A stretch of DNA of 64,000 nt, taken from Lysobacterales bacterium 66-474. Its GTDB lineage: Bacteria > Pseudomonadota > Gammaproteobacteria > Xanthomonadales > Rhodanobacteraceae. Under the pieces are notes generated by a model. It was not told where the DNA came from and searched no databases. It was given only the letters and a program-made list of their open reading frames with translations. Positions 30,740 to 43,733 of the stretch are shown one piece after another. The DNA is taken from positions 1 to 64,000 of the forward strand of contig MKWP01000009.1 in assembly GCA_001899805.1 (NCBI GenBank). The letters run 5' to 3'. The translations under genes and the position numbers were made by a program. Every line of letters starts with the position of its first letter. Position 1 is the stretch's first letter.

Positions 30740-31593
30740 CGCGACAACGCCTTGTCCAGCCAGCGCAGCAGCGGCGGCAGCTTTCCAGCGTCCAGGGTTT
30801 CGGTTGCGGGGGCTGCGGTGGCGCCCGTCGCATTGGATCCATCGCGGCGCGGCCGTGGCGGCAGATAGCGGTTCACCGGCCGGTAGCCGAACTCCGGCAT
30901 CAGTGCGAAGCCTGCGCGTTCGGCCACCACTTTCGACACCTCGGAATCCGGATCGCCGAGGTCGCCGAACATCCGCGCGCGGGTCGGGCACGCGAGCACG
31001 CACGCCGGTTGCCGATCGCGTTCGTCCAGCGTTTCGTTGTAGATGCGGTCCACGCACAGCGTGCACTTCTGCATCGTGCCGCGCTTGGAATCCTTGCGGC
31101 TTGAGTCCGATGTGGAAGTTTTCGGGTGCGGCAGCGCGATCTCGCGCGCGCCGTAGGGGCAGGCCCACGCGCACAGCTGGCAGCCGATGCATTTGTCTTC
31201 GTCCACCAGCACGATGCCGTCCGCGGCGCGCTTGTAGCTCGCTCCGGTCGGGCACACCGTCACGCAATCCGGCGTTTCGCAATGCAGGCACGAACGCGGG
31301 AAGTGCACCATCTGCGGGACCGGCCCGCCCCCTCCCGCGTGCGCTGCGCGCACCTTCTCCTCCCCCGCGTGCGGGGGAGGGTTGGGGTGGGGGGCAATCT
31401 CGTAACTATGCACCCGATTGAACCACACGCCGTGCGGTTCAGCGCCATAGGGATCGTCGTCGGCCAGCGGGCCGAAGTCGCCGCCGTCGTTCCATTCCTT
31501 GCAGGCGACCGCGCACGCGTGGCAGCCGACGCAGGTGTCGAGGTCGATCACCAACCCGAGCTTTTTCTTCGCCGGCGCGGGCAGGCTGGTCAC
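30736..31593 (-). CDS. four-cluster ferredoxin-type electron-transfer subunit (DmsB/SoeB-like), with a repeat-encoded insert
   Basis: A 285-residue Fe-S protein from GTG 31593 (GAGG upstream); the frame extends upstream only through repeat DNA. Seen: four [4Fe-4S] cysteine sets, CVGCHACAVAC, CLHCETPDCVTVC, CIGCQLCAWAC and CTLC...CVLAC. It relays electrons between the molybdenum subunit and the membrane anchor. Residues about 62-92 are an insert encoded by a REP palindrome (31316-31405; PHPNPPPHAGEE-like), lying between the first and second cysteine sets. The catalytic subunit gene is upstream beyond an SLC13 permease and a repeat element. Confidence 0.88.
   Translation of the reverse strand: MTSLPAPAKKKLGLVIDLDTCVGCHACAVACKEWNDGGDFGPLADDDPYGAEPHGVWFNRVHSYEIAPHPNPPPHAGEEKVRAAHAGGGGPVPQMVHFPRSCLHCETPDCVTVCPTGASYKRAADGIVLVDEDKCIGCQLCAWACPYGAREIALPHPKTSTSDSSRKDSKRGTMQKCTLCVDRIYNETLDERDRQPACVLACPTRARMFGDLGDPDSEVSKVVAERAGFALMPEFGYRPVNRYLPPRPRRDGSNATGATAAPATETLDAGKLPPLLRWLDKALSR
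31316..31405. repeat. REP palindrome in frame inside the Fe-S subunit gene
   Basis: The stem CTCCCCCGC/GCGGGGGAG with TTGGGGTGGGGGGCAA behind it matches the element inside prmA (53277-53365). It adds about 30 proline/glycine-rich residues without breaking the frame. Confidence 0.75.
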
Positions 31594-31617
31594 CGTGACG
31601 ACCTCAGTTTGGAATTC

Positions 31618-32177
31618 GACATCCCTGTCTTTTTCCGCGCGCCTCCCGGGCGCGCGTGTAACTTTCTCTTGCGTGGCCAAGAGAAAGTCACCAAAGAGAA
31701 GGCCACCCCGCGGACGCGCCCTTCGCGCATCCGTGCGCTGCGGGTTCGCTCGCAGACGCCGGAGTTCGCCGACGGTGCATCCATGCACCCACGGCGAACT
31801 GGTCCACATCCTGTGGACCACCCTTCGGGCTGCTCCTGCGTCCGCTCGCCGCGTCCGAGGGGCCCCATTTGGCGCGCTTCCTGCGCGCTGTACGTGTGGG
31901 GCGGGCATTCGGCTCCCCTTCGAACGAGGCCATGGATGGCCGGTGGGCGAAGCACAAGCCGCGCCGTCGCATGCCGCCGAGTAGCGCAGTCGGGCGCGCG
32001 AGCAAGGCGCGCATGTTCGAGGGCACGGACGCCCGAGTTCGCGCCGGCGCGCGCTCGACGAGCAACGCAGGGAAGTTTCAGCGACACGACGTCGCTGAAA
32101 CCGGCATGCCCGGCGCAATGGTCTTTGGTGACTTTCTGCCAAAACAGAAAGTCACCCGCTCGCCGCCGAGGCGAGCG
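31618..32177. repeat. structured repeat element A (hairpin array with inverted arms)
   Basis: This fills most of the 737-bp gap between the Fe-S gene and the permease gene; no gene is supported. It starts with CGACATCCCTGTC and two hairpins (31636-31656; ACTTTCTCTTG/CAAGAGAAAGT at 31661-31688). It continues through a chain of short stems with TCC at the apex (for example GTGCATCCATGCAC and CCACATCCTGTGG) and ends with GTGACTTTCTG/CAGAAAGTCAC (32128-32155) and CGCTCGCC/GGCGAGCG. The right half (32177 to about 31925, minus strand) is the same unit as both arms of element B. From 32178 to 32330 nothing is recognised. Confidence 0.85.
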
Positions 32178-32330
32178 GAACACTGCGACGGACGATCGGT
32201 CTTGCGGGGTTGTGCAATGGGCATTCGATCCGATCGCCAAGTGCGTCGTCGTTGCCAATTGCGTGCAAATTGGTGACTGCGATGGCAGGACACGTGCGGG
32301 GGAGGTCGCGTGCAGATGGGTCACGATGGA

Positions 32331-34088
32331 TCAAAACGGCCAGATCTTCGGGATGAGATACATCGACAACACGCAGAACAACAGGATCAACGGCACGCCC
32401 ATCTTGGTGAAATCGAGGAAGCGATAGCCGCCAGCGTAGTACACCATCGTGTTGGTCGGATACCCGACCGGCGTCGCGAACGAGGTCGCGGCGGCGAACG
32501 CGACCGCCACCACGAACGGCCGCGGATCGGCATGCACGGCGTGCGCGACGCTGACCGCGATGCCGACCATCAGCACCACCGACGGGTTGTGTCCCATCAG
32601 TTCGGTGAGCAGCGCGGTGAGCAGGTACACCATCAACAAGGCGGCCAGCGGGCCGTGGTTGCCGACGACGTCGAGTGCGCCCTGCACCACCACGTTGGCG
32701 AGGCCGGTGCGTTCGATCGCGATGCCGAGCGGCAGGATCGCGCCGAGCAGGATGATGATCTTCCAGTCCATGCCCTGGTACACGTCCTTGCGCCCGAAGC
32801 AGCGCGTCAGCGCCATCGCCGCAACGCCGCAGATCGCGGCGATCGGGATCGGCAGCCAACGCAGCGCGGAAACGATCACCACCGCCGCCATGATCCCGGT
32901 CGCGACGAACGCCTTGTAGCGCGGGCGGCGCGCATCGTCGCGCTCGTTCAACACCACGAAACGATCGTCGCGGCGCAGACGGCTCACCGCGTCGGCGGGC
33001 AGCAGCATCATCAGCACGTCGCCGGTCTGGAACGCGACGTCGCGGATCTTGTCGCGCAGCAGGTGGCCGCGGCGATGGATGCCGAGCACGGTGGCGCCGT
33101 AGCCGGGCAGCAGGTCGAGGTCGCGCAGCGTGCGGTCCTCGGCGGTGCTGGCCGGCGCGACCATGGCTTCGACCAGCACGTTGGCCTTGTCGCCGTCCTC
33201 GACGTGGGTGAACTCGGGGTTGATTTCCAGCCCGGCGTGCTTGCGGAACTCCTCCAGCTTGTCCCATTCGCCGCGTACCAGCAGCACGTCGCCGGACGAG
33301 AGCTTCTGGGTGCGTGGCGACCACATGTGCTCGTCGCCGCGCAACAGTTCCAGCGGGTACACGCCGCGGTCGCCGAGCTTGGCCTCGGCGATGGTCTGGC
33401 CCACCAGCGGCGAATCCGACATCACCTTGAGTTCGGTGACGTATTTGCCGACCTCGGCCGGGCCGGATACCTCGTTGTCGAGGCGCTGGGGCAACAACCA
33501 GCGCCCGATCACCATCAGGTAGATGATGCCCGCGATCGCCAGCATCACGCCGAGCGGCGTGAACTCGAAGATCCCGAACGGCGCGAGGCCCTGCTTCTGC
33601 GCCAGCGAATCCACCAGCAGGTTGGACGAGGTGCCGATCAATGTGCACACCCCGCCCATTTGCGCCGCGAATGCCATCGGCATCAGCACCCGCGCAGGCG
33701 AGGTGCCGGTGCGCTGGCACACCCGCAACGCCAACGGCAGGAAGGTCGCGACCAGCGCGGTGTTCTTGATGAACGCGCCCAGCGGCGCGATCGCCAGCAT
33801 CATGCCCAGCGACAACAGCCACGGTTTGCGGATCCCGGAGAGCAGGTTGATGATCGGGTCCAGCGCGCCGGAGCGCTCGATGCCCAGCGCCAGCGCGAAC
33901 ATCGCCGCGACCGTCACCGTGGCTTCGTTGCTGAAGCCCGACAAGGCCTGTTCGGGCGAGACGATGCCGAGCGCGGCCAGCAGGCCCAGGGTGATCAGCG
34001 CGACCAGGTCGACGCGCACCTTCTCGCTCGCGAACAGCACCATCGCGAACAGGATGATCCCGGCAGTGGCCCAGGCCTGCCAGGTCAT
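32331..34088 (-). CDS. SLC13-family anion permease with RCK (TrkA-C) domains
   Basis: A 585-residue membrane protein. Seen: two sets of hydrophobic helices with the SLC13/DASS patterns (GAFIKNTALVATFLP, CTLIGTSSNLLVDSLA; second half NPSVVLMVGIAVSVAH, ATPVGYPTNTMVYY) separated by a cytosolic part with two TrkA-C-like domains at about residues 200-370 (VGQTIAEAKLGDRG; LRDLDLLPGYGATVLGI). This layout is that of SAC1/YfbS-type sulfate or dicarboxylate carriers. It lies between the catalytic and Fe-S subunit genes of a SoeABC-like enzyme on the same strand, so sulfate or a related oxyanion is an attractive substrate (inferred). ATG 34142 would add 18 residues. Confidence 0.82.
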   Translation of the reverse strand: MTWQAWATAGIILFAMVLFASEKVRVDLVALITLGLLAALGIVSPEQALSGFSNEATVTVAAMFALALGIERSGALDPIINLLSGIRKPWLLSLGMMLAIAPLGAFIKNTALVATFLPLALRVCQRTGTSPARVLMPMAFAAQMGGVCTLIGTSSNLLVDSLAQKQGLAPFGIFEFTPLGVMLAIAGIIYLMVIGRWLLPQRLDNEVSGPAEVGKYVTELKVMSDSPLVGQTIAEAKLGDRGVYPLELLRGDEHMWSPRTQKLSSGDVLLVRGEWDKLEEFRKHAGLEINPEFTHVEDGDKANVLVEAMVAPASTAEDRTLRDLDLLPGYGATVLGIHRRGHLLRDKIRDVAFQTGDVLMMLLPADAVSRLRRDDRFVVLNERDDARRPRYKAFVATGIMAAVVIVSALRWLPIPIAAICGVAAMALTRCFGRKDVYQGMDWKIIILLGAILPLGIAIERTGLANVVVQGALDVVGNHGPLAALLMVYLLTALLTELMGHNPSVVLMVGIAVSVAHAVHADPRPFVVAVAFAAATSFATPVGYPTNTMVYYAGGYRFLDFTKMGVPLILLFCVLSMYLIPKIWPF

Positions 34089-34261
34089 GGGCAAGGTTCC
34101 GTCGCGAGATGGGACTGCGGCACTTTCATTCTCCCCGAACATCGATCCGGTGCGTCGTCGATGCGACGACCGGTTTCATCCGCTGGCCGATTGTGCCGGC
34201 ATCGCATGCGCGCGGCCAAGCGTCGCGTTACCGCGCATCAGTGTACGCGGCGGAACCGGCG

Positions 34262-37255
34262 TCAGGCATCGGCCAGCTCGATCCGGTGCCCCGGCACGCC
34301 GGGCTCGGGATCATGCTCCAGCCGCACCCTCAGGTCGAACCACGCGGCCTGGCCCGTCACCGGATCGCCGTTGGCGTAGCGCGTGTCGCCGGCGCGTTCG
34401 CCGATCAGGTGGTTGAGCAGGAACCCGTCCACGAACTCCGGCGCGCGGTCACCCAGTTTCCAGGCACCGCGCTTCTTGCCGATCGCGTTCCAGGTCCACA
34501 CCGTGCCTGGCGCGGTGGCCGCGTGCGCACAAACTTCCACGCGGATGCGACCGCGCGGCGACGCGATCCACGCCCAGTCACCGCTCCGGAGCGCATGCCC
34601 GGCCAGCGTACGCGGATGGACGTACAGCACGTTGCGCGCCGCGATCTGCCGCAGCCAGCGATTCTGCGAACCCCATGCGTGGTACATGAACATTGGCCGC
34701 TGGGTGATGGCGGAAAGCGGGTAGCTGCCTTTCCCTTCTCCCCCCGGGAGAAGGTGGCGCAAAGCGCCGGATGAGGGTCCGTTGTCATCGAGGCGTTGGT
34801 GCGGCGCCGTACCCTCACCCAGCGCGCTGTGCGCGCTTCCCTCTCCCGAGGGGAGAGGGAAATCAGCGTCGCTTCGCGACGAATACCAAAAAGGCACCGG
34901 ATCGAAATACCGCGCCACCCGCGCGCGCTCCGATTCCGGCGGTTGCACCGCACCATGGCCCTGCGCCGCGAGCCGGAAGTGTTGCAGCGTTTCGCAATAC
35001 AACTGCATGGTGACCGGTTCGGTGGAACCCGCGAAGCCCATCGACTGCGCCCACTCGAGGTAATCGCGATTGGCCATCCGGTAATACGCGCCGGCTTCCG
35101 GGATTTTCGATTCGAAGAAACAGCCGTGTTCGATGTAGCGCTGCAACTGGTCCGGGTTCGGTGCGCCCTTGCCGGCTTGCGAACCGTCCGCGCCGCGCCA
35201 GCCTGCAAGCATGCCCACGCCGGGCGCGCGTTCATGCCGCACCATGTAATCGGCATAGCTCCTGTAGGTCGGCGCGCCTTCGGTGTCGGCCATGTTCGGC
35301 AAATTCAGGCGTGCACCGAGGTCCAGCAATACATCCTGGAATGACCGCACGTCGCGATCGGGTCGGACCACGGGTTGTCGTATCGCGTCGGCCGCGCCTT
35401 CGGCGTCGCTGATCGGACGGTCCAGCAGGCTGATGCAGTCGTAGCGTTCGAGGTAGGTCGTGTCCGGCAGCACCAGGTCGGCGAACGCGACCGTTTCCGA
35501 ATCGTAGGCATCGACGTAGATGATGTGCGGGATCTTGTAGTTGCCCGCGTCATCGCGCGCGCACAGCAGCTTGCGGGTCGCGGTGGCATCCATCGCCGAG
35601 TTCCAGCCCATGTTGGCCATGAACAGGAACAGCGTGTCGATCTTCGAGGGATTCGCATCCACCGCATTGCGGATCACCGATTGCAACAAGCCGTGCGCCG
35701 CCAGCGGATATTCCCAACTGAAAGCATGATCGATGCGACGTGGCCGGCCTTCTGCATCGACCAACAGATCGTCGGGCGATTGCGGATAGCCGAGCGGGTT
35801 GCCGGTGAGCGTGCCGTCCGGTTTGCGCGCCTTGGCCGGCTTGTTGCCGGGCGGCGCGGGTTTCGGATACGGCGGTTGGTAGCGGAAGCTGCCGGGCGTG
35901 TCGATCGCGCCGAGCAGGATCTGCAGCACATGGATCGTGCGGCAGGTGTGAAAGCCGTTGGCGTGTGCGGCGATTCCGCGCATCGCGTGCATCGAGACCG
36001 GACGGCCGGGCATGGTGTCGTGATGGCGGCCGTGGGTGTCGGTCCATGCGATCGGCAACTCGATCGCTTCCTCGAACGCCGTGTGCGCGAGTTCGGCGGC
36101 GAGCCGGCGGATCGTTGCTGCATCCACGCCGCAGCGTTCGCTGACGTTTTCCGGCGCGTACTCGTCGGCGAGAAATCGTTCGGCAACGATTTGGAAGGCT
36201 GGCACCGCCTTGCGGCCGTCGGGCAGCGTGTATTCGCCTGCGATCAATGGCGCGATGTCGGGCTGTGTGGCGTCGACAATCATCGAGCCTGGTTGCTTTT
36301 GCTCGTCATTCCGGCGCAGGCCGGAATCCAGTGGTGAAGGCCGCCCGTCACCAGATAAAACCGGGCCCCGGCCTTCGCCGGGGCGACGAGCGGAAGCGCA
36401 CACCGCGCACAACGGCTTGCCGTCCGCGTCGCGCGCGATCAGTCCATCGTCCGCCGCGCCCGGATCGCGGATCACCAGATGATGCGCGTTGCTGTAGCGC
36501 ACCAGGTAATCGAAATCCACGCGGTCGTTCTGCAGCAATTCGTGGATCAGCACGCCGGCCAGCAAGCCATCGGTGCCCGGGTTCACCGGGACCCATTCGT
36601 CCGCGATCGACGCGTAACCCGTGCGCACCGGATTGATCGCGACGATCTTGGCGCCGCGCGCCTTCATCTTGCCGAGGCCAAGCTTGATCGGGTTCGAATC
36701 GTGGTCCTCGGCCACGCCCCACAGCATCAGGTATTTGGTGCGCTCCCAATCGGGCTCGCCGAATTCCCAGAACGAGCCGCCGAAGGTGTACATGCCGGCC
36801 GCCGCCATGTTCACCGAACAGAAGCCGCCGTGCGCGGCGTAGTTGATGGTGCCGAACTGCTGCGCCCACCAGCCGGTCAGGGCCTGCGACTGGTCGCGGC
36901 CGGTGAAGAACGCGAGTTCATCCGGATTGCGCGCGCGGATGTCGCCCAGCCACTTCGTCGCGAGCTGAAGCGCTTCGTCCCATTCGATCTCGCGGAACTC
37001 GCGCGCGCCGCGTTCGCCCGTGCGCAGCAACGGCTTGCGCAAGCGTGCCGGCGAATAGTGCTGCATGATGCCCGACGAACCCTTCGCGCAGATCACGCCG
37101 CGGTTGACCGGATGTTCGGGATTGCCGTCGATGTAACGGACGCGGCCGTTCTTCAGGTGCACTCTTATCCCGCAACGGCACGCGCACATGTAGCACGTCG
37201 TGGTTTTGATCTCGTCGCCAGTGGGTTCGTTGAGTTTGAGATTCTTGTGGGGCAT
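34262..37255 (-). CDS. molybdopterin oxidoreductase catalytic subunit (SoeA-like), with two repeat-encoded inserts
   Basis: A 997-residue complex iron-sulfur molybdoenzyme subunit. Seen: the N-terminal cluster C21-x2-C24-x3-C28-x27-C56, a probable molybdenum-ligand Cys146 in GGFCSVNMAAAG, RTGYASIADEWVPVNPGTDG, and a C-terminal dinucleotide-binding domain (VYVHPRTLAGHALRSGDW-like). No twin-arginine signal, so the enzyme is cytoplasmic-facing, as for SoeA sulfite dehydrogenase. Two inserts are encoded by palindromic repeats: residues about 285-321 and 797-843. The first 88 bp are duplicated upstream. Alternatives: polysulfide/thiosulfate- or DMSO-reductase-like enzymes. Confidence 0.82.
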   Translation of the reverse strand: MPHKNLKLNEPTGDEIKTTTCYMCACRCGIRVHLKNGRVRYIDGNPEHPVNRGVICAKGSSGIMQHYSPARLRKPLLRTGERGAREFREIEWDEALQLATKWLGDIRARNPDELAFFTGRDQSQALTGWWAQQFGTINYAAHGGFCSVNMAAAGMYTFGGSFWEFGEPDWERTKYLMLWGVAEDHDSNPIKLGLGKMKARGAKIVAINPVRTGYASIADEWVPVNPGTDGLLAGVLIHELLQNDRVDFDYLVRYSNAHHLVIRDPGAADDGLIARDADGKPLCAVCASARRPGEGRGPVLSGDGRPSPLDSGLRRNDEQKQPGSMIVDATQPDIAPLIAGEYTLPDGRKAVPAFQIVAERFLADEYAPENVSERCGVDAATIRRLAAELAHTAFEEAIELPIAWTDTHGRHHDTMPGRPVSMHAMRGIAAHANGFHTCRTIHVLQILLGAIDTPGSFRYQPPYPKPAPPGNKPAKARKPDGTLTGNPLGYPQSPDDLLVDAEGRPRRIDHAFSWEYPLAAHGLLQSVIRNAVDANPSKIDTLFLFMANMGWNSAMDATATRKLLCARDDAGNYKIPHIIYVDAYDSETVAFADLVLPDTTYLERYDCISLLDRPISDAEGAADAIRQPVVRPDRDVRSFQDVLLDLGARLNLPNMADTEGAPTYRSYADYMVRHERAPGVGMLAGWRGADGSQAGKGAPNPDQLQRYIEHGCFFESKIPEAGAYYRMANRDYLEWAQSMGFAGSTEPVTMQLYCETLQHFRLAAQGHGAVQPPESERARVARYFDPVPFWYSSRSDADFPLPSGEGSAHSALGEGTAPHQRLDDNGPSSGALRHLLPGGEGKGSYPLSAITQRPMFMYHAWGSQNRWLRQIAARNVLYVHPRTLAGHALRSGDWAWIASPRGRIRVEVCAHAATAPGTVWTWNAIGKKRGAWKLGDRAPEFVDGFLLNHLIGERAGDTRYANGDPVTGQAAWFDLRVRLEHDPEPGVPGHRIELADA
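34725..34865. repeat. inverted repeat pair in frame inside the molybdoenzyme gene
   Basis: CTTCTCCCCCCGGGAGAAGG and CCCTCTCCCGAGGGGAGAGGG-type hairpins in a GGATGAGGGT...ACCCTCACCC arrangement. It adds about 47 residues near the C-terminus of the subunit. Related pieces lie between genes at 39595-39770 and 41285-41330. Confidence 0.7.
36290..36400. repeat. REP palindrome pair in frame inside the molybdoenzyme gene
   Basis: CATTCCGGCGCAGGCCGGAATCC followed by CCCCGGCCTTCGCCGGGG (both cut to cores) is the same family as the intergenic repeats at 37490 and 39575. It adds about 37 residues in frame. Confidence 0.7.
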
Positions 37256-37256
37256 G
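37169..37256. repeat. 88-bp direct repeat, copy 1 (start of the molybdoenzyme gene)
   Basis: Covers the start codon and the first codons up to the second half of the CxxCxxxC motif. It is identical to 37391-37478 except one base (37240 A versus 37462 G), giving an offset of 222 bp. Confidence 0.92.
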
Positions 37257-37667
37257 AGTGCGCGCGCCTGAAGGTTCCGGCTTTACTGCTATCGAGCCGT
37301 CCATGGCGCTGGGCACCGGCCCGGCCATCCTTGGCCGGTCGCTCGCCTGCGCGCGATCTGCCCCCGGCAGATCGCAAGCGCGCCGCCTCGCCCGCAACGG
37401 CACGCGCACATGTAGCACGTCGTGGTTTTGATCTCGTCGCCAGTGGGTTCGTTGAGTTTGAGGTTCTTGTGGGGCATGCGTGGTTCCGGTTGTCATTCCG
37501 GCGAAGGCCGGAATCCAGCTTCCTGCCTTGACCTGGATCCCGGCCAATCCGTGGCCGGGATGACGAAGAACTCGAAGGTGCGATAACGGATGGTAGCCAC
37601 CCCGGCGCTTGCCGCCAATCGCGCGGCGCGGCATGCTGGAGTCTGCGGGTGTTGACGGGCCCTTGGC
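37257..37667. repeat. gap between molybdoenzyme gene and WYL gene: repeats and duplication
   Basis: This holds a hairpin series at 37297-37390 (GGCCGGCCATCC-like and GATCTGCCCCCGGCAGATC stems), copy 2 of the 88-bp repeat (37391-37478) and a REP pair at 37490-37570 (TTCCGGCGAAGGCCGGAA; CCCGGCCAATCCGTGGCCGGG). The remaining 37571-37667 precedes the WYL gene and shows no clear promoter. Confidence 0.7.
37289..37477 (-). pseudogene. truncated duplicate of the molybdoenzyme gene start
   Basis: A 62-codon frame. Its first 29 residues equal those of the intact gene (KTTTCYMCACRCG), then it diverges into repeat-derived sequence and stops. It lies directly upstream of the real gene on the same strand, so a transcript may carry both. 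It encodes only three cysteines of the cluster motif plus one, so it cannot build a normal [4Fe-4S] site. Most likely the product of a duplication or a recombination between repeats. Confidence 0.75.
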
Positions 37668-38648
37668 ATGCACCAGTACGAACGCGTCCTCAAGTTGCAC
37701 GGCATCTTCAAGTCGCACCGGCGGCCGGTCGGCGTGCAACGCCTGCGCGAGGAACTGGGCTGCTCGCGCGCCACCTTGTATCGCGACATCGCGTTCCTGC
37801 GTGATGCGCTGGGCGCACCGCTGGACAGCGATCCCGAAGGCGCGGGTTTTGCCTATGCCCAGGACGAAGGCGAGCGCTTCGAACTGCCCGGCCTGTGGCT
37901 GACCAGCGAGGAACTCTCGGCGTTGATGGCGCTGGAGGCGCTGGTCGCGCGTTCGGATCCGGGCGTGCTGGCCGATGCGCTGGCGCCATTCCGCGCGCGC
38001 GTCGAGAAACTGCTCAACGAACACGCCGGCACGCGCAAGCAACCGCTGGAGCGCATCCGCGTGGTGCCATGGGGTTCGCGCAAATTCAACCAGCAGGTGT
38101 TTCGCGCGGTGGCCGGTGCGGTGCTGGCGCGCCAGCAGTTGAAGTTCCGCTACCGCGCGCGCACCACCGGCGCCGACAGCGTGCGCCACGTGTCGCCGCA
38201 GCGGCTCACGCACTACCGCGACAACTGGTACCTGGATGCATGGGACCACGATCGCGAGGCGCTGCGCAGTTTCGCGGTGGATCGCATCGGTGAACCCGAG
38301 GCGCTCGACAAGCCCGCCGTCGACCGCAATGAGAAGGAATTGAACGACACCCTGGCGTCGAGCTACGGCATCTTCGCGGGCGCGCCCAAGGCCTGGGCGA
38401 CGATCCGGTTTTCCGCGCGCGCCGCGCGCTGGGTCGCCGACGAGCATTGGCATTCGCTGCAGGAAGGCCGCTGGCTCGACGACGGCCGCTACGAATTGAA
38501 GGTGCCGTATTCGCAATCGCGCGAGCTGGTGATGGACATCCTGCGCTACGGGCCGGATGCGCAGGTGGTGTCGCCGCAATCGCTGCGCGAGGAAATCCGC
38601 ATCATGCACAAGCTCGCGCTGGACGAGTACGACCACGCCAAGCCGTGA
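37668..38648 (+). CDS. HTH/WYL-domain transcriptional regulator
   Basis: A 326-residue regulator. Seen: an N-terminal winged helix (residues 1-55, VQRLREELGCSRATLYRDIAFLRD) and a WYL domain (about residues 140-215, LKFRYRARTTG, NWYLDAWDH), plus a C-terminal WCX-like extension. WYL proteins sense nucleic acid or small-molecule ligands and often control DNA-damage or defence genes. The patatin gene starts on its stop codon (GTGA overlap), so the two form an operon. Target genes unknown. Confidence 0.85.
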   Translation: MHQYERVLKLHGIFKSHRRPVGVQRLREELGCSRATLYRDIAFLRDALGAPLDSDPEGAGFAYAQDEGERFELPGLWLTSEELSALMALEALVARSDPGVLADALAPFRARVEKLLNEHAGTRKQPLERIRVVPWGSRKFNQQVFRAVAGAVLARQQLKFRYRARTTGADSVRHVSPQRLTHYRDNWYLDAWDHDREALRSFAVDRIGEPEALDKPAVDRNEKELNDTLASSYGIFAGAPKAWATIRFSARAARWVADEHWHSLQEGRWLDDGRYELKVPYSQSRELVMDILRYGPDAQVVSPQSLREEIRIMHKLALDEYDHAKP

Positions 38649-39562
38649 ACGACCGTCGCGAACTCGTGGTGCAGCCGCACGCCCAGCCCACCGTTGCGCT
38701 GGCGCTGGGCACCGGCGGCGCGCGCGGGCTGGCGCACATCGGCGCGATCGAGGCTGTCGCGGCCGCGGGCTACCGCATCACCGCGGTCTCCGGCAGCTCG
38801 ATGGGCGCGTTGATCGGCGGTATCCACGCGGCCGGCAAGCTCGACGTCTATCGTGACTGGGTGTGCGCGCTGCAGAAGATGGATGTGCTGAAACTGGTGG
38901 ACTGGACGCTGTCCGGCGCCGGGCTCATCAAGGGCGATCGCATCATCGGCGTGCTGCGCGAACTGATCGGGCCCGTGAACATCGAGGACTTGCCGATCCC
39001 GTTCACCGCGGTCGCGACCGACCTCGACCGCGAACGCGAGATATGGCTGACACGCGGCCCGTTGTTCGATGCGATCCGCGCCTCCATCGCGATCCCGACC
39101 ATCTTCCGCCCGCATCCCGTGCACGGACATCGCCTCGTCGATGGCGGACTGATGAATCCGCTGCCGCTGACGCCGCTGCTGCAATCGCCCAGCGACTACA
39201 CCGTCGCGGTCAACGTCAACGGTTCGCCCGAAACCCTGGCCGCCTCGCGCGCGCCCGCGAAGCAGCCCGCACGCACCGGATTGCGCAGCCGCGTCGCGGC
39301 GTTCGTCAAACGCACCATCGGCAACCACGACGACAAGGAAACCGAGCCCGGCTGGATGGACACGCTCACCCAATCGCTGGACCTGATGCAGCAGAACCTC
39401 ACCGGCTTCCGGCTCGCCGCGGACCGTCCCGACCTCGTGATCGAAATCCCGCGCAACGCCAGTGCGGTGTACGAGTTCTACCGCGCGTCGGAGTTGATCG
39501 AACTCGGGCGCGAGCGCGCCGAGCGCGCGCTGGCGGCGTGGCAGCCGCAGAGTCGCGGTTGA
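38645..39562 (+). CDS. patatin-like phospholipase
   Basis: A 305-residue patatin-family lipid hydrolase starting at GTG 38645 inside the WYL stop codon. Seen: the oxyanion loop GTGGARGLAHIGAI, nucleophile elbow GSSMG (Ser52) and the catalytic Asp in VDGGLMNP, completing the Ser-Asp dyad. This compact RssA/YchK-like form lacks a signal peptide and a barrel domain, so it is probably cytoplasmic. Co-expression with a WYL regulator is notable; the substrate lipid is unknown. Confidence 0.88.
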   Translation: MNDRRELVVQPHAQPTVALALGTGGARGLAHIGAIEAVAAAGYRITAVSGSSMGALIGGIHAAGKLDVYRDWVCALQKMDVLKLVDWTLSGAGLIKGDRIIGVLRELIGPVNIEDLPIPFTAVATDLDREREIWLTRGPLFDAIRASIAIPTIFRPHPVHGHRLVDGGLMNPLPLTPLLQSPSDYTVAVNVNGSPETLAASRAPAKQPARTGLRSRVAAFVKRTIGNHDDKETEPGWMDTLTQSLDLMQQNLTGFRLAADRPDLVIEIPRNASAVYEFYRASELIELGRERAERALAAWQPQSRG

Positions 39563-39782
39563 CCCTTGTTCGTCATCCCGGCGCAGGCCGGGATCCAGCT
39601 CTTTCCCTCTCCCGACGGGGTGAGAGGCGGCGCTTGCGAACTGCCAGTGGCGGTTCGCGCCGACTCGAACGCCCGAGGCAGGACGCCGAGGGCCGGGTTG
39701 CTTGGCGAGCACCGGACGCGCGAGCCTAGCAACGGTGGCGCGTAGCGCCGGGTGAGGGTACGGTCCCTCGCGTGATGCCGCA
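39563..39782. repeat. palindromic repeats after the patatin gene
   Basis: Contains TCATCCCGGCGCAGGCCGGGATCC (core GGCGCAGGCC) and a CCCTCTCCCGACGGGGTGAGAGG-like stem, ending in GGGTGAGGGTACGG. The families are the same as those inside the molybdoenzyme gene. No gene is seen here. Confidence 0.6.
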
Positions 39783-41157
39783 CGACATCCCTGTCTTTTT
39801 CCGCGCCGTCCCACGGCGCGGGCTACTTTCTGTTTCGGCAGAAAGTAGCCAAAGACCATTGCGCCTGTGGCGGAGGGTTCGGCAACATCGTGTTGCCTCA
39901 CCTTCCCTGCGATGCTCGCCGAACGGCAGCCGCGCCGAACTCGCACATCCCTGTGCTCAAACATGCGGCGCTTGCTCTGCCGTTCGGCTGCGCTTCTCGG
40001 CACCGCCAACGGCGCGAGGAAAGCTCGCTTCGTTGCCGGCCATCCATGGCCTGCTCCTATGGATTTACGTCAGACTTTGGTGGCTCGGTTGTGGCCGTCT
40101 CTGATTCATACTTTGCCAAGAACTCGTATAGAGCATCAACGAGCGGTTTATCTCCAAACGCTTTTGCTACCATGGTTGCAGCCATAAGGCCACGATAGAT
40201 GTAATTTTCAAAAGCATTTTCGCAATCATCGATACGTGACGTCCCAACCATCCCCTGAACATGAAAGTGTGGGGGATCGCCGCCGTACATTTCCATGATG
40301 TTTGCGGATTGTGCATGGACATAGCCGGAATACACGGTGCTCAAGCTCTCCTCCGCATCAAGCGCTTGAGAGATGTTTACCCCCTGACCGAGGGTGCGTA
40401 CGGTGTGGGCTCGAATCTTTTTCCGTGGAAGCAGGTCAGGCTTTGGAATTTGCAATGAGCCTTCTGGGCGTGAAAGGACGGTGTCGGCGTAGAACGCTAA
40501 GAGGTATCGTTTGTGCTTCGCTGTGCTAGTGCCACTCGTGACTGCACTGGCCAGGAATAAAATGTCTTCCTGAATTTCGTCGAGCGTTCGGAAGATCACG
40601 CCGACTTCTTGGGCGTATCCGGTGTCGAGGAGCACTGCCGCAGCGTTTAAGCCACTTATGTGACGGGCCAGCTTCTGTATGAGTGCTTCGTGAATACCTT
40701 TGGTGGCGTAGCGAAAAACAAAAGAATCCTTGTATGGAACACGCTGTGGTGGAGCGATGGCCGCCTCCATCCTTCGCATGGAGCTCGTCATTACCGTCAA
40801 GGCTTCGGTTCGCAGTTGATGCATGCTTTGGAGCCCGATCGTGGTTGCGTTCCAAACGTGTGACGGTGCGACCCTATCACTGCTCGGGTTCTAGATGTGG
40901 CTAAACGCAGGCCATGGATGGCCGGCAGCGAAGCTAGAAACGCGCCGTTGGCGGTGCCGCAGCCGCGCAGGCGATCGCGCGAGCAAGGCGCGCATGTTTG
41001 AGCGCAGGGATGTGCGAGTTCGCGCCGGCGCGCGATCGGCAAGCGGCAAGGGAAGGTGAGGCAACACGACGTTGCCGAACCCACCGCCACGGGCGCAGTG
41101 GTCTTTGGCCACTTTCTGCCGAAACAGAAAGTGGCTCGCTCGCCGCAGAGGCGAGCG
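39783..41157. mobile_element. structured repeat element B: inverted arms enclosing a cargo gene
   Basis: Left arm 39823-40054 and right arm 40907-41135 are near-identical inverted repeats of about 230 bp. Each starts with an ACTTTCTG/CAGAAAGT hairpin and CCAAAGACC and ends with GGCCATCCATGGCCTGC. The outer left end (CGACATCCCTGTC, stem CCGCGCCGT/ACGGCGCGG) and outer right end (CTCGCC/GGCGAG) match those of element A. The 852-bp core (40055-40906) carries one gene of clearly lower GC. No transposase or target duplication is visible, so the mobility mechanism is unknown. Confidence 0.75.
40057..40824 (-). CDS. low-GC cargo gene, helical protein of unknown function
   Basis: A 255-residue, mainly helical soluble protein. 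A segment near residues 45-95 (LARHISGLNAAAVLLDTGYA, FRTLDEIQEDILFLA) resembles the repeated long helices of DUF5677/HEPN-like proteins, which is only a weak hint. Base composition is near 50% GC by eye against about 68% around it, pointing to transfer. Its stop codon lies three bases from the left inverted arm, and its start is 83 bases from the right arm. No clear ribosome-binding site is seen at ATG 40824. Confidence 0.6.
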   Translation of the reverse strand: MHQLRTEALTVMTSSMRRMEAAIAPPQRVPYKDSFVFRYATKGIHEALIQKLARHISGLNAAAVLLDTGYAQEVGVIFRTLDEIQEDILFLASAVTSGTSTAKHKRYLLAFYADTVLSRPEGSLQIPKPDLLPRKKIRAHTVRTLGQGVNISQALDAEESLSTVYSGYVHAQSANIMEMYGGDPPHFHVQGMVGTSRIDDCENAFENYIYRGLMAATMVAKAFGDKPLVDALYEFLAKYESETATTEPPKSDVNP

Positions 41158-41336
41158 AAACTTTCGCGAAAGCGCTGCGCGCTCGGCGTAGACAAAATGG
41201 ATTCCGGGTTCTGGCCTGCGGCCAGCCCCGGAATGACGACGCTTGTTGGGGCGTGGTTTGCGCCAGGAGATAAGTGCTCGCGCGAGTGTGCACCCTCACC
41301 CGCCCTTCGGGCACCCTCTCCCGATGGGAGAGGGAT
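41158..41336. repeat. palindromic repeats downstream of uvrD
   Basis: Contains ATGGATTCCGGGTTCTGG ... CCAGCCCCGGAATGACG (41199-41240), the family of 9789-9905, and a CCCTCTCCCGATGGGAGAGGG stem near 41310-41332, immediately after the uvrD stop. These probably terminate uvrD transcripts. No gene is visible. Confidence 0.6.
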
Positions 41337-43523
41337 TCAAAGCGCAGTCAGATTCGCGTACGCGGCGACCAGCCACTTCGGCCCCGCGTCCGCGAAATTC
41401 ACCTGGATGCGGGTGTGCGCGCCGGAGCCTTCGGCGGTGACGACGACGCCTTCGCCGAATTTGGCGTGGCGGACGCGCTGGCCGAGTTTGACGGGCAGGC
41501 TGTCGTCGAGGTCGGCGTGGCCGCGGGCGCGTTGCAAATGCCCGGACGACGGGTAAACCGGCCGCGAAATCTTGGCGCGCGGGCGTACTTCGGTCAGCAG
41601 GTGCGCGGGCAATTCGTCGAGGAAGCGCGACGGGCGCTGCAGGGTTTCGCTGCCGTACTGGCGGCGCGATTCGGCGTAGCACAGCACCAGCCGTTCGCGT
41701 GCGCGGGTGATGCCGACGTAGGCGAGGCGGCGTTCCTCTTCCAGGCGCGAAGGATCTTCGACCGAACGCTGGGTCGGGAACAGGCCGTCTTCCAGACCGA
41801 CCAGGAACACGACGGGAAACTCCAGGCCTTTCGCCGAATGCAGGGTCATCAGTTGCACGCAGTCGGTACCCGCTTCGCCCTGGCCTTCGCCGGCTTCCAG
41901 CGCGGCGTGCGCGAGAAAGGCGCTGAGTTCGGACAAGCCGGCTTCGATGTCTTCGGGGGTCATTTCGAAACGGCTGGCGACGTTGACCAGTTCGTCGAGG
42001 TTCTCGACCCGCGCCTCGGCATTGCCGCGGCTGTCGCGTTCGTAATAGTCGCGCAAGCCCGATTGGTTGATCGTGCGTTCGATCTGTTCGGCCAGATTGA
42101 TGTCGTCGGAACCCTTGGCCAAACCATCAACCAGGGTCATGAAGCCGCGCAACGCATTTTTCGCGCGCATGTTCAATTCGCCGCCCGCGAGTTCGGCCAG
42201 CGCGGCATCCCACAGCGACGTGTCGCCGGCACGTGCGCGGCGGCGCAGTTGATCGACGCTGCGTTCGCCGACGCCGTGCGGGGGCGTCGCCAACGCGCGT
42301 TCGAACGAGGCGTCGTCGCCGCGGTTGGTGGCGAGCCGCAGGTAGGCCAAGGCGTCTTTCACTTCCGCGCGTTCGAAGTAGCGCTGCCCTCCATACACGC
42401 GGTAGGGAATGTTTTTCTGGTGCAGCTGTTCCTCGAAGTTGCGCGACTGCGCATTGGAGCGGTACAGCACCGCGATGTCGGAGGCGTGTCCGCCGCCGTC
42501 GAGGTATTCGCGGATGCGTTCGATCACGAAGCGCGCTTCGTCCTGCTCGTTGTAGGCGGCGTACAGCGCGATCGCCTCGCCCTTGTCGCCGGACGTCCAC
42601 AATTTCTTGCCGAGCCGCGACGGGTTCTGCACGATCACCGCGTTGGCGGCTTCGAGGATCGTGGACGTGGAGCGGTAATTCTGTTCCAGCCGCAGCGTTT
42701 TCGCGTCCGGGAAATCGTGCAGGAACGCGCGCATGTTCTCGACCTTGGCGCCGCGCCAGCCGTAGATCGACTGGTCGTCGTCGCCGACCGCGAACACTTT
42801 TCCCGTCTTGCCCGCGAGCAGCCGGATCCACGCGTACTGCAGCGCGTTGGTGTCCTGGAACTCGTCGATCAGCAGGTGCCGCCAACGTTCCTGGTAGTGC
42901 GCGCGCAAGGCGTCGTTGTCGCGGATCAGTTCGTGCGCACGCAGCAGCAGTTCGGCGAAGTCGACCAGTCCCGCGCGGCGGCAGGCCTGCTCGTAGGCTT
43001 CGTAGATTTTGAGGTAGGTGCGCGCGACCGGGTGGTCGCCCGGCTCGATGCCTTCCGGGCGCTTGCCTTCGTCCTTCCACTGGTTGATCTGCCACATCGC
43101 CTGGCGCGGCGGGTATTTCGCTTCGTCGATGCCGAGTCCCGCGACCACGCGCTTCACCAGCCGTTGCTGGTCTTCGCTGTCGAGGATCTGGAAGGTTTCC
43201 GGCAATTGCGCTTCCTGCCAGTGCTGGCGCAACAGCCGGTGCGCGAGTCCGTGGAAGGTGCCGACGGTGAGTCCGCGCATCCCGTGCGGCAACAGGTTGG
43301 CGAGGCGCGCGCGCATCTCGCCGGCGGCCTTGTTGGTGAAAGTGACCGCGAGGATGGCCCACGGCGGCGCGGCTTCGGCTTCGATCAGCCAGCCGATCCG
43401 GTGGGTGAGCACGCGGGTCTTGCCCGAACCTGCGCCGGCCAGCACCAGGTAGTGGCCCGGCGGGGCGGCGACGGCTTCGCGTTGCGCGGTGTTGAGCGAA
43501 TCCAGCAGGTACGAAACATCCAT
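41337..43523 (-). CDS. uvrD: DNA helicase II (UvrD)
   Basis: A 728-residue SF1A helicase of nucleotide-excision and mismatch repair. Seen: LNTAQREAVAAPPGH, Walker A AGAGSGKTRVLT, motif Ia TFTNKAAGEM, Walker B LIDEFQDTN, DDDQSIYGWRGA, VLYRSNAQSR, TLHSAKGLEF and VGITRARERL, in the correct order, and a C-terminal Tudor-like tail (GQRVRHAKFGEGVV). ATG 43523 matches the family N-terminus MDVSYLLD; GTG 43544 is an alternative. Confidence 0.95.
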   Translation of the reverse strand: MDVSYLLDSLNTAQREAVAAPPGHYLVLAGAGSGKTRVLTHRIGWLIEAEAAPPWAILAVTFTNKAAGEMRARLANLLPHGMRGLTVGTFHGLAHRLLRQHWQEAQLPETFQILDSEDQQRLVKRVVAGLGIDEAKYPPRQAMWQINQWKDEGKRPEGIEPGDHPVARTYLKIYEAYEQACRRAGLVDFAELLLRAHELIRDNDALRAHYQERWRHLLIDEFQDTNALQYAWIRLLAGKTGKVFAVGDDDQSIYGWRGAKVENMRAFLHDFPDAKTLRLEQNYRSTSTILEAANAVIVQNPSRLGKKLWTSGDKGEAIALYAAYNEQDEARFVIERIREYLDGGGHASDIAVLYRSNAQSRNFEEQLHQKNIPYRVYGGQRYFERAEVKDALAYLRLATNRGDDASFERALATPPHGVGERSVDQLRRRARAGDTSLWDAALAELAGGELNMRAKNALRGFMTLVDGLAKGSDDINLAEQIERTINQSGLRDYYERDSRGNAEARVENLDELVNVASRFEMTPEDIEAGLSELSAFLAHAALEAGEGQGEAGTDCVQLMTLHSAKGLEFPVVFLVGLEDGLFPTQRSVEDPSRLEEERRLAYVGITRARERLVLCYAESRRQYGSETLQRPSRFLDELPAHLLTEVRPRAKISRPVYPSSGHLQRARGHADLDDSLPVKLGQRVRHAKFGEGVVVTAEGSGAHTRIQVNFADAGPKWLVAAYANLTAL

Positions 43524-43582
43524 CGGACCAATTGTAACGTTCACCCGCCTCGCCGACTTGGTGGTATCGTCGCAAGAATCGC

Positions 43583-43733
43583 TGAATAGCCTGCTGCGCT
43601 CGGCAGCTTGCGCGCCGGCGGTGCTCGGAATGCTCGCGTACTCATATGTACGCCCCGCTTCCTGCGCTCCGGCGTCACGCAATTTGGGAGCTCTGTTGCA
43701 TGGATGGCGTTGTTCGCTCGCGACGGCTATTCA
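43583..43733. repeat. GTAC-hairpin dispersed repeat, copy 1
   Basis: Minus-strand reading: GAATAGCCGTCGCGAGCGAA, then CGCCGGAGCGCAGGAAGCGG, GCGTAC-ATATGA-GTACGC, GAGCATTCCGAGCACCGCCG and CGAGCGCAGCAGG. The copy at 60619-60740 has the same blocks in the same order. It lies between uvrD and the DUF937 gene. Confidence 0.75.

Follow-up and report, generated by a model that had tools for sequence, protein, structure and literature searches.

What kind of sequence occupies positions 31618-41157 of the window (the whole 64,000-nt stretch of DNA analysed) is the question that this locus raises. An earlier note had described it as one dispersed hairpin-array repeat. From sequence and alignment we find two separate elements of one repeat family, A (31616-32184) and B (39782-41164), with ordinary genes in between (ORFs 32331-34142, 34262-37255 and 37668-38648, and one ending at 39562). 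We read them as non-autonomous mobile DNA elements, each made of two inverted arms with folded ends and, in some copies, a single foreign-looking gene as swappable cargo, whose fold is maintained as DNA, and we put the probability of this reading at roughly one half. The family is apparently undescribed. The earlier note knew of no named family, and this holds for Rfam 15, where nothing in window positions 31000-41500 exceeds the gathering score, and for the open-access papers that our searches listed; the kind, however, is already known (the class II intrastrand triplex repeat, BoxC/PIT).

Element A (about 31616-32184, no strand assigned) carries no cargo and consists of an L arm, a spacer of about 30 bp and an inverted R arm. 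It is flanked by two minus-strand genes, one transporter-like and the other ferredoxin-like (names given by eye). From its outer to its inner end, the L arm (31616..31888, plus strand) comprises a hairpin TCGACATCCCTGTC, a CGCGCGCC hairpin, a triplex-pseudoknot core and hairpins with a TCC apex. The core (31661..31706, plus strand) consists of a pyrimidine (Y) strand ACTTTCTCTT at 31661-31670, a loop GCGTGGCC at 31671-31678, a purine (R) strand AAGAGAAAGT at 31679-31688 followed by CACC, a mirrored third strand AAAGAGAA at 31693-31700, and a pseudoknot strand GGCCAC at 31701-31706, whose partner is GTGGCC in the loop. The R arm of A (31918..32184, minus strand) has, again from outer to inner, its Y strand at 32152-32145, R strand CAGAAAGT at 32138-32131 and third strand AAAGAC at 32126-32121. 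The left half of A, which the earlier note omitted, is a second arm type (L) that has its outer ~80 nt in common with the R arms.

Element B (about 39782-41164, likewise without a strand) encloses about 0.84 kb, cargo included, between two R arms in inverted orientation, and is flanked by convergent patatin-like and UvrD-like helicase genes (also named by eye). The left arm (39784..40059, plus strand) places its Y strand at 39825-39832, R strand CAGAAAGT at 39839-39846 and third strand AAAGAC at 39851-39856. The right arm (40903..41164, minus strand) has its hairpin at 41132-41111 and third strand at 41106-41101, and its outer end is without the GACATCC hairpin. The cargo ORF (40057..40824, minus strand, 255 aa) has its stop 3 nt inside the arm and no match in Pfam, PADLOC or NCBIfam; the cargo DNA is 52% GC, compared with 65% for the arm. 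What the earlier note quoted, namely the hairpins, their constant loops and stem changes on both sides, is all present in these arms, and its three arms align as claimed; the long stem that it gave for A is there too, although it includes a G-T pair. The whole of A and three arm stretches or strands give folds that lie 6.2-8.3 SD below dinucleotide shuffles, and 48 places in the same genome match (24 loci after manual grouping, a few of which are fragments); the folding signal is therefore not due to chance.

The window holds other repeats as well. Two BoxC-type hairpins, CCCTCTCCC..GGGAGAGGG, with CCCTCACCC near each, lie outside both elements at 34839-34859 and 41314-41334; this makes a G-rich intrastrand triplex motif, and none would be expected from 100 shuffles. 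A different dispersed repeat of ~107 nt, with many similar copies in this genome and its congeners, occupies the start of the UvrD-like gene (43576-43682). A 92-bp direct repeat (37169-37260 and 37391-37482, 98% identical) lies at the start of an oxidoreductase-like gene. A short REP-like repeat GTCATTCCGGC..GCCGGAATCCA is found at 36303-36331, 37489-37518, 39568-39598 and 41211-41239, and sequence resembling it adjoins, by eye, the outer end of several R arms.

At the outer side of every arm is a hairpin of one pyrimidine and one purine strand, and a third strand (in L-type arms the stretch between hairpin and pseudoknot strand) repeats the purine strand in mirror image. The pairings include AAGAGAAA with AAAGAGAA and AAAGAAAA with AAAAGAAA, and reciprocally AAAGAGAA with AAGAGAAA and AAAAGAAA with AAAGAAAA. 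In L-type arms, the loop of this hairpin pairs with the strand just inside (GTGGCC/GGCCAC, TCGCC/GGCGA, TGCCC/GGGCA and others); four of the six pairs of this pseudoknot change on both sides and none on one side. A loop pseudoknot in the R arms found no clear support. We selected 99 matches by hairpin, pseudoknot and purine-rich R strand, leaving the third strand unconstrained: 83 obey the mirror rule at 8/8, 13 obey it at 7/8 and three break it, with 2 or fewer. Many of the loci behind these matches were fetched by sequence similarity, so that the fair unit is the type; the 14 distinct combinations score 85/112, more than any of 5000 shuffles (highest score 80). Direct repetition, counted in place of mirroring, gives no excess. 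A second set (n=80), found with a covariance model trained on the consensus and including some duplicate loci, has 44 members at 7/7, 26 at 6/7 and 10 lower. Its mirror score is 395/448 (best of 2000 shuffles, 374), and a complementary stretch of 4 or more occurs in 71/80; in several exceptions, by eye, a T in the purine strand faces a C in the third strand. Both the mirror-rule sets and the placement set described below include loci that are orthologous or were fetched twice (L046/L095, L236/L278, L251/L279 and L256/L281). In R arms the third strands are shorter but mostly obey the same rule, a few exceptions aside (CAGAAAG with AAAGA, CAAAAG with AAAA, GAAAG with AAAG). Pyrimidine, purine and mirrored purine third strand thus follow one another in this order on a single strand, and the core, judged by its sequence, is laid out like a class II purine-motif intrastrand triplex. 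It does not fit the G-rich TM_ECO consensus (which is BoxC itself), the cores being A/G triads. A third strand in the major groove and the pseudoknot may fit in one molecule or may alternate.

The predicted stems, pseudoknot and third strand co-vary. Across 63 R arms, the two sides of a stem share normalised information of 0.63-0.96 in H2, H3, H4, H5 and H5b, of 0.57-0.96 in H6 and of 0.49-0.58 in the domain stem. Between blocks that are not stem partners it is 0.03-0.31, except H5b with H5 (up to 0.93), which are parts of one long stem. The small hairpin enclosed by the long stem reassorts freely with it, pairing being kept, which linear block exchange could not produce. The earlier note had allowed that gene conversion between inverted arms might account for the stem changes; simple block exchange fails to explain them, and gene conversion alone is rejected because enclosed and enclosing stems reassort. 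Selection or maintenance of structure rather than of protein, in line with its view, fits the data, since two-sided changes persist between blocks that are otherwise near linkage equilibrium. In a core alignment of 34 sequences and 19 pairs, there are no one-sided changes and 10 pairs have two-sided changes. Compared with 500 shuffles, the alignment lies above all of them on four of five measures and, on the fifth (the number of pair types), below 499; its covariation score exceeds that of every slid version. Column pairs 8-37 and 21-54 are unpaired in about half of the sequences.

Whether the fold is kept as RNA or as DNA, both of which the earlier note had entertained, can be approached through wobble pairs. 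The core helices of the R arms (3393 cells) contain 3260 Watson-Crick, 23 G-T, 50 A-C and 60 other pairs, and those of the L arms (3752 cells) 3510, 37, 63 and 142, respectively. Acceptor and T stems of tRNAs from the same genome (360 cells) contain 286 Watson-Crick, 49 G-T, 4 A-C and 21 other. Arm stems are therefore 94-96% Watson-Crick with about 1% G-U, against 14% G-U in tRNA stems, a crude control (30 of 44 matches, stems placed by a simple rule). RNase P was a poorer control: its automatic alignment was badly folded, and at 19 variable pairs (400 Watson-Crick, 27 G-T, 19 A-C and 64 other) the expected excess of G-U was not clearly seen, so the tRNA stems were used. Wobble pairs are thus not tolerated in the arms as they are in functional RNA. 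Because G-T pairs are few in the arms compared with tRNA, the core shows no one-sided change and the layout is that of a purine-motif triplex, RNA is poorly supported and the arm fold is probably maintained as DNA; of the two options named by the earlier note, single-stranded DNA is the better supported. A-C exceeds G-T by about 2:1 in the arms, which means roughly two G-U pairs on the strand that carries GGA apices for every one on the other strand, and this lean is the sole hint of selection on RNA.

A role in RNA would make the arms that lie downstream of genes 3'-UTR structures, or arrays of hairpins that bind CsrA/RsmA (through CANGGATG loops on whichever strand leads out of the element) and so act as a sponge for the regulator. 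The GGA hexaloops, which we take to match the CsrA consensus, speak for it, as does the lean of G-U to the GGA strand. So does the gene context: for 44 paired elements genes were called on both sides within 600 bp, and these flanking genes are tandem in 28 cases, convergent in 14 and divergent in two, counts that are rough because the simple gene finder misses genes (it overlooked two real-looking genes of the window, and element B is hence absent) and some sites are orthologous. A Gilvimarinus locus, furthermore, has two matches to the TwoAYGGAY RNA (RF01731) of 41.2 and 33.8 bits, the gathering score being 43. However, there is almost no G-U, the GGA loops of two inverted arms fall on different strands, and 30 single arms have no strong strand preference. 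By eye, an Aggregatibacter copy has no GGA apices and many apices of one R hairpin are CGA. TwoAYGGAY is absent from window positions 31000-41500 at E<=1, and among eight distant loci nothing in Rfam exceeds the cut-off near the copies, where TwoAYGGAY appears below threshold only. Purine-motif triplexes, moreover, cannot form in RNA, as Holder et al. 2015 (PMC4666352) state in their text, citing others. We therefore regard an RNA role as improbable. ARAGORN makes only three tRNA calls in the fetched loci, and a cobalamin riboswitch lies away from the copies in one locus (L186).

In the own genome, the best arm identity between copies is 92-94%, that is, there are no recent copies. Matches occur in 37 of 61 genomes searched (this one included), among them all 16 of the genus; copy counts from this search are lower bounds, few candidates having been scored per genome. 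Profile matches at 106 loci yield 65 neighbouring inverted arm pairs (38 L/R, one of them at a locus fetched twice, 14 R/R and 13 L/L), in addition to single arms. The spacer is 28-37 bp in 35 of the 38 L/R pairs. R/R pairs lie 13-17 bp (five), 116 bp (one) or 628-843 bp (six) apart, or overlap (two), and L/L pairs 56-78 bp (seven) or 103-342 bp (six). The six long R/R intervals are 52-57% GC, lower than the 62-66% of the arm beside them; five contain one clear ORF each (158-215 aa), and the sixth is that of the cargo ORF of B. Searched against Pfam, one of the six proteins encoded in the cargo scores above the cut-off (Mrr_N); none matches PADLOC. A HEPN protein lies between an arm pair 2.85 kb apart (L276), and an FRG protein at L277 is outside the pairs of that locus and was not counted as cargo. 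No transposase is found among the cargo proteins scanned, and the elements resemble MITEs in having inverted ends without a transposase of their own. In several copies the R arm has an additional hairpin block of ~65 nt, in each case at one shared position (L014 2932-2995, L019 2957-3021 and L039 1429-1493).

The earlier note had proposed a covariance-model search; run with a 59-nt core model in place of whole arms, it gives matches in 92 of 369 evenly sampled Gammaproteobacteria. Across the phylum, 51 of 299 genomes match; 24 of them belong to a single family outside this class and score less well. In both surveys, the numbers of individual matches are to be read as "at least", and both strands of one palindrome may be listed. 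The core model was built without R arms, and in the own genome it also finds R-arm cores. Hosts of the exact pattern include Silvimonas, Aggregatibacter, Gilvimarinus, Halopseudomonas, Methylomonas and Dokdonella, and BLAST matches fall in Pasteurella, Aeromonas, Burkholderia and Rhizobium records, the Rhizobium match being to a different part of the query. Loci of Pasteurella, Aggregatibacter, Silvimonas, Methylomonas and Dokdonella contain inverted core pairs whose left and right variants mostly differ. The window element has no match in plasmids; an 801-bp Aggregatibacter query hits 12 plasmid records, nearly all over a core of ~50 nt. A 76-nt core query finds nothing in E. coli or phages, and one stretch in viral contigs matches the R-arm pattern.

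Signs of mobility were sought in related genomes. Site A is readable in 14 of 15 congeners, and 12 have arm sequence there, in differing combinations; one (G004) has a remnant of ~60 bp that the profile missed, and another (G011) nothing recognisable. Site B is readable in 12, of which five have arm pieces and several, by eye, different genes. No clean empty site was found. Three copies in one genome (G1003) are 87-96% identical over 315-321 bp and have common ends against unrelated flanks. In another (G949), 18 copies were read, and the six that could be scored automatically (12/18 could not) divide evenly: an 8-bp flank match is seen at L271 (8/8), L272 and L285 (both 7/8), with a shuffle p of 0.014, and no match at L265 (4/8), L266 (5/8) and L270 (0/8). 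L270 and L264 reach 8/8 only with the end set by hand. These flanks hint at possible 8-bp target duplications in a few copies of that genome; none is visible in six G523 or three G1003 copies. We hold our main reading slightly less firmly because half of the automatically scored copies are without a duplication. By eye, six G949 elements (L264, L267, L271, L283, L288 and L290) adjoin the T-run of a sequence resembling an intrinsic terminator, and these neighbours suggest a target preference.

If the elements are mobile, each strand would expose one folded 5' end when single-stranded, and a transposase or recombinase provided in trans could act on the folded ends. Recombination in the common outer ~80 nt would exchange arms and cargo between copies, and stalling or template switching at the folds might keep the stems perfect. 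Folding in the cell, the mobiliser and the mechanism of exchange are all things that we infer. A further rival is REP/BIME-type elements, which RAYT (Y1 HUH) transposases move through single-stranded hairpins; the elements here are likewise hairpin arrays in intergenic DNA. However, the Y1 transposase family (PF01797, Y1_Tnp) has no match in the own genome (G000) at E<=0.001 and matches in only seven of the 16 genomes of the genus, all of which have elements. HUH single-strand transposition also leaves no target duplication, contrary to the hint in G949. With no Y1_Tnp match in the own genome we reject the RAYT mechanism, and consider it very improbable that the family belongs here.

The chief rival is a motif of DNA-structure instability that needs no transposase, like BoxC/PIT: polymerases would stall at the triplex hairpins, and repeated recombination and template switching at old sites would leave mosaic palindromes and captured genes. 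This would account for one orthologous site with different arm combinations and for the failure to find a mobiliser, and strict Watson-Crick stems fit template-switch correction. The main text of Holder et al. describes such intergenic class II motifs in E. coli K-12, where five inverted pairs, always of two types joined, occupy highly unstable loci (PMC4666352); work cited there shows that the motifs block DNA polymerase in vitro. On the other hand, discrete units with common ends at unrelated sites, together with the few 8-bp flank matches, resemble transposition, and a third strand and pseudoknot conserved over many families call for selection or a binding partner. Replication and conjugation assays in vivo, as cited in the same text, also found no effect of such motifs (PMC4666352). 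We consider the instability motif possible, at well below even odds, and still prefer non-autonomous mobile elements. A more ambitious version of the latter, which we offer tentatively and think on balance doubtful, is that they are transposable elements of a class not seen before, carried by about a quarter of the Gammaproteobacteria sampled, in which an enzyme recognises the ends by their folded DNA triplex-pseudoknot and not by linear sequence, and single foreign genes are shuttled between sites.

If our reading is correct, the family would provide comparative evidence for a DNA triple helix under strict sequence constraint in bacteria, with a third strand that changes in step with its hairpin across genera. 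The unexplained BoxC/PIT motifs would then be the simplest form of a larger family of elements, and single accessory genes would have a route for spread. Among known systems, BoxC/PIT/TM_ECO is the closest. As described in the main text of Holder et al., it shares with our elements the order of pyrimidine, purine and third strand that defines the class II purine-motif intrastrand triplex, the mirrored purine third strand, the intergenic location, inverted pairs of two variants and unstable loci; its E. coli version folds in DNA by CD and NMR, and footprinting in vivo indicates a triplex that is at most transient (PMC4666352). The elements here differ in having A/G-rich rather than G-rich triads, a loop pseudoknot, hairpin-array arms of ~250 nt, an overall size of about 0.3-3 kb, cargo in some copies and covariation across many genera. 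That main text contains neither the word pseudoknot nor Xanthomonas, and reports no association of the motif with mobile elements. MITEs and TIMEs (PMC4133298), the latter being non-autonomous transposons with passengers, are similar in their inverted ends, several copies, passenger genes and want of an own transposase. Their ends are the fixed terminal repeat of a known IS, whereas those seen here are folded, co-varying hairpins. TwoAYGGAY RNA shares GGA-apex hairpins and the sub-threshold match at one Gilvimarinus locus, but GGA apices are not found in every host, nor the RNA in the window region searched. Pam-1 of Pasteurella multocida, a structured intergenic repeat of 155 nt in 12 copies according to the description in PMC2267715, may or may not be the same family; we set it beside our elements by that description rather than by sequence.
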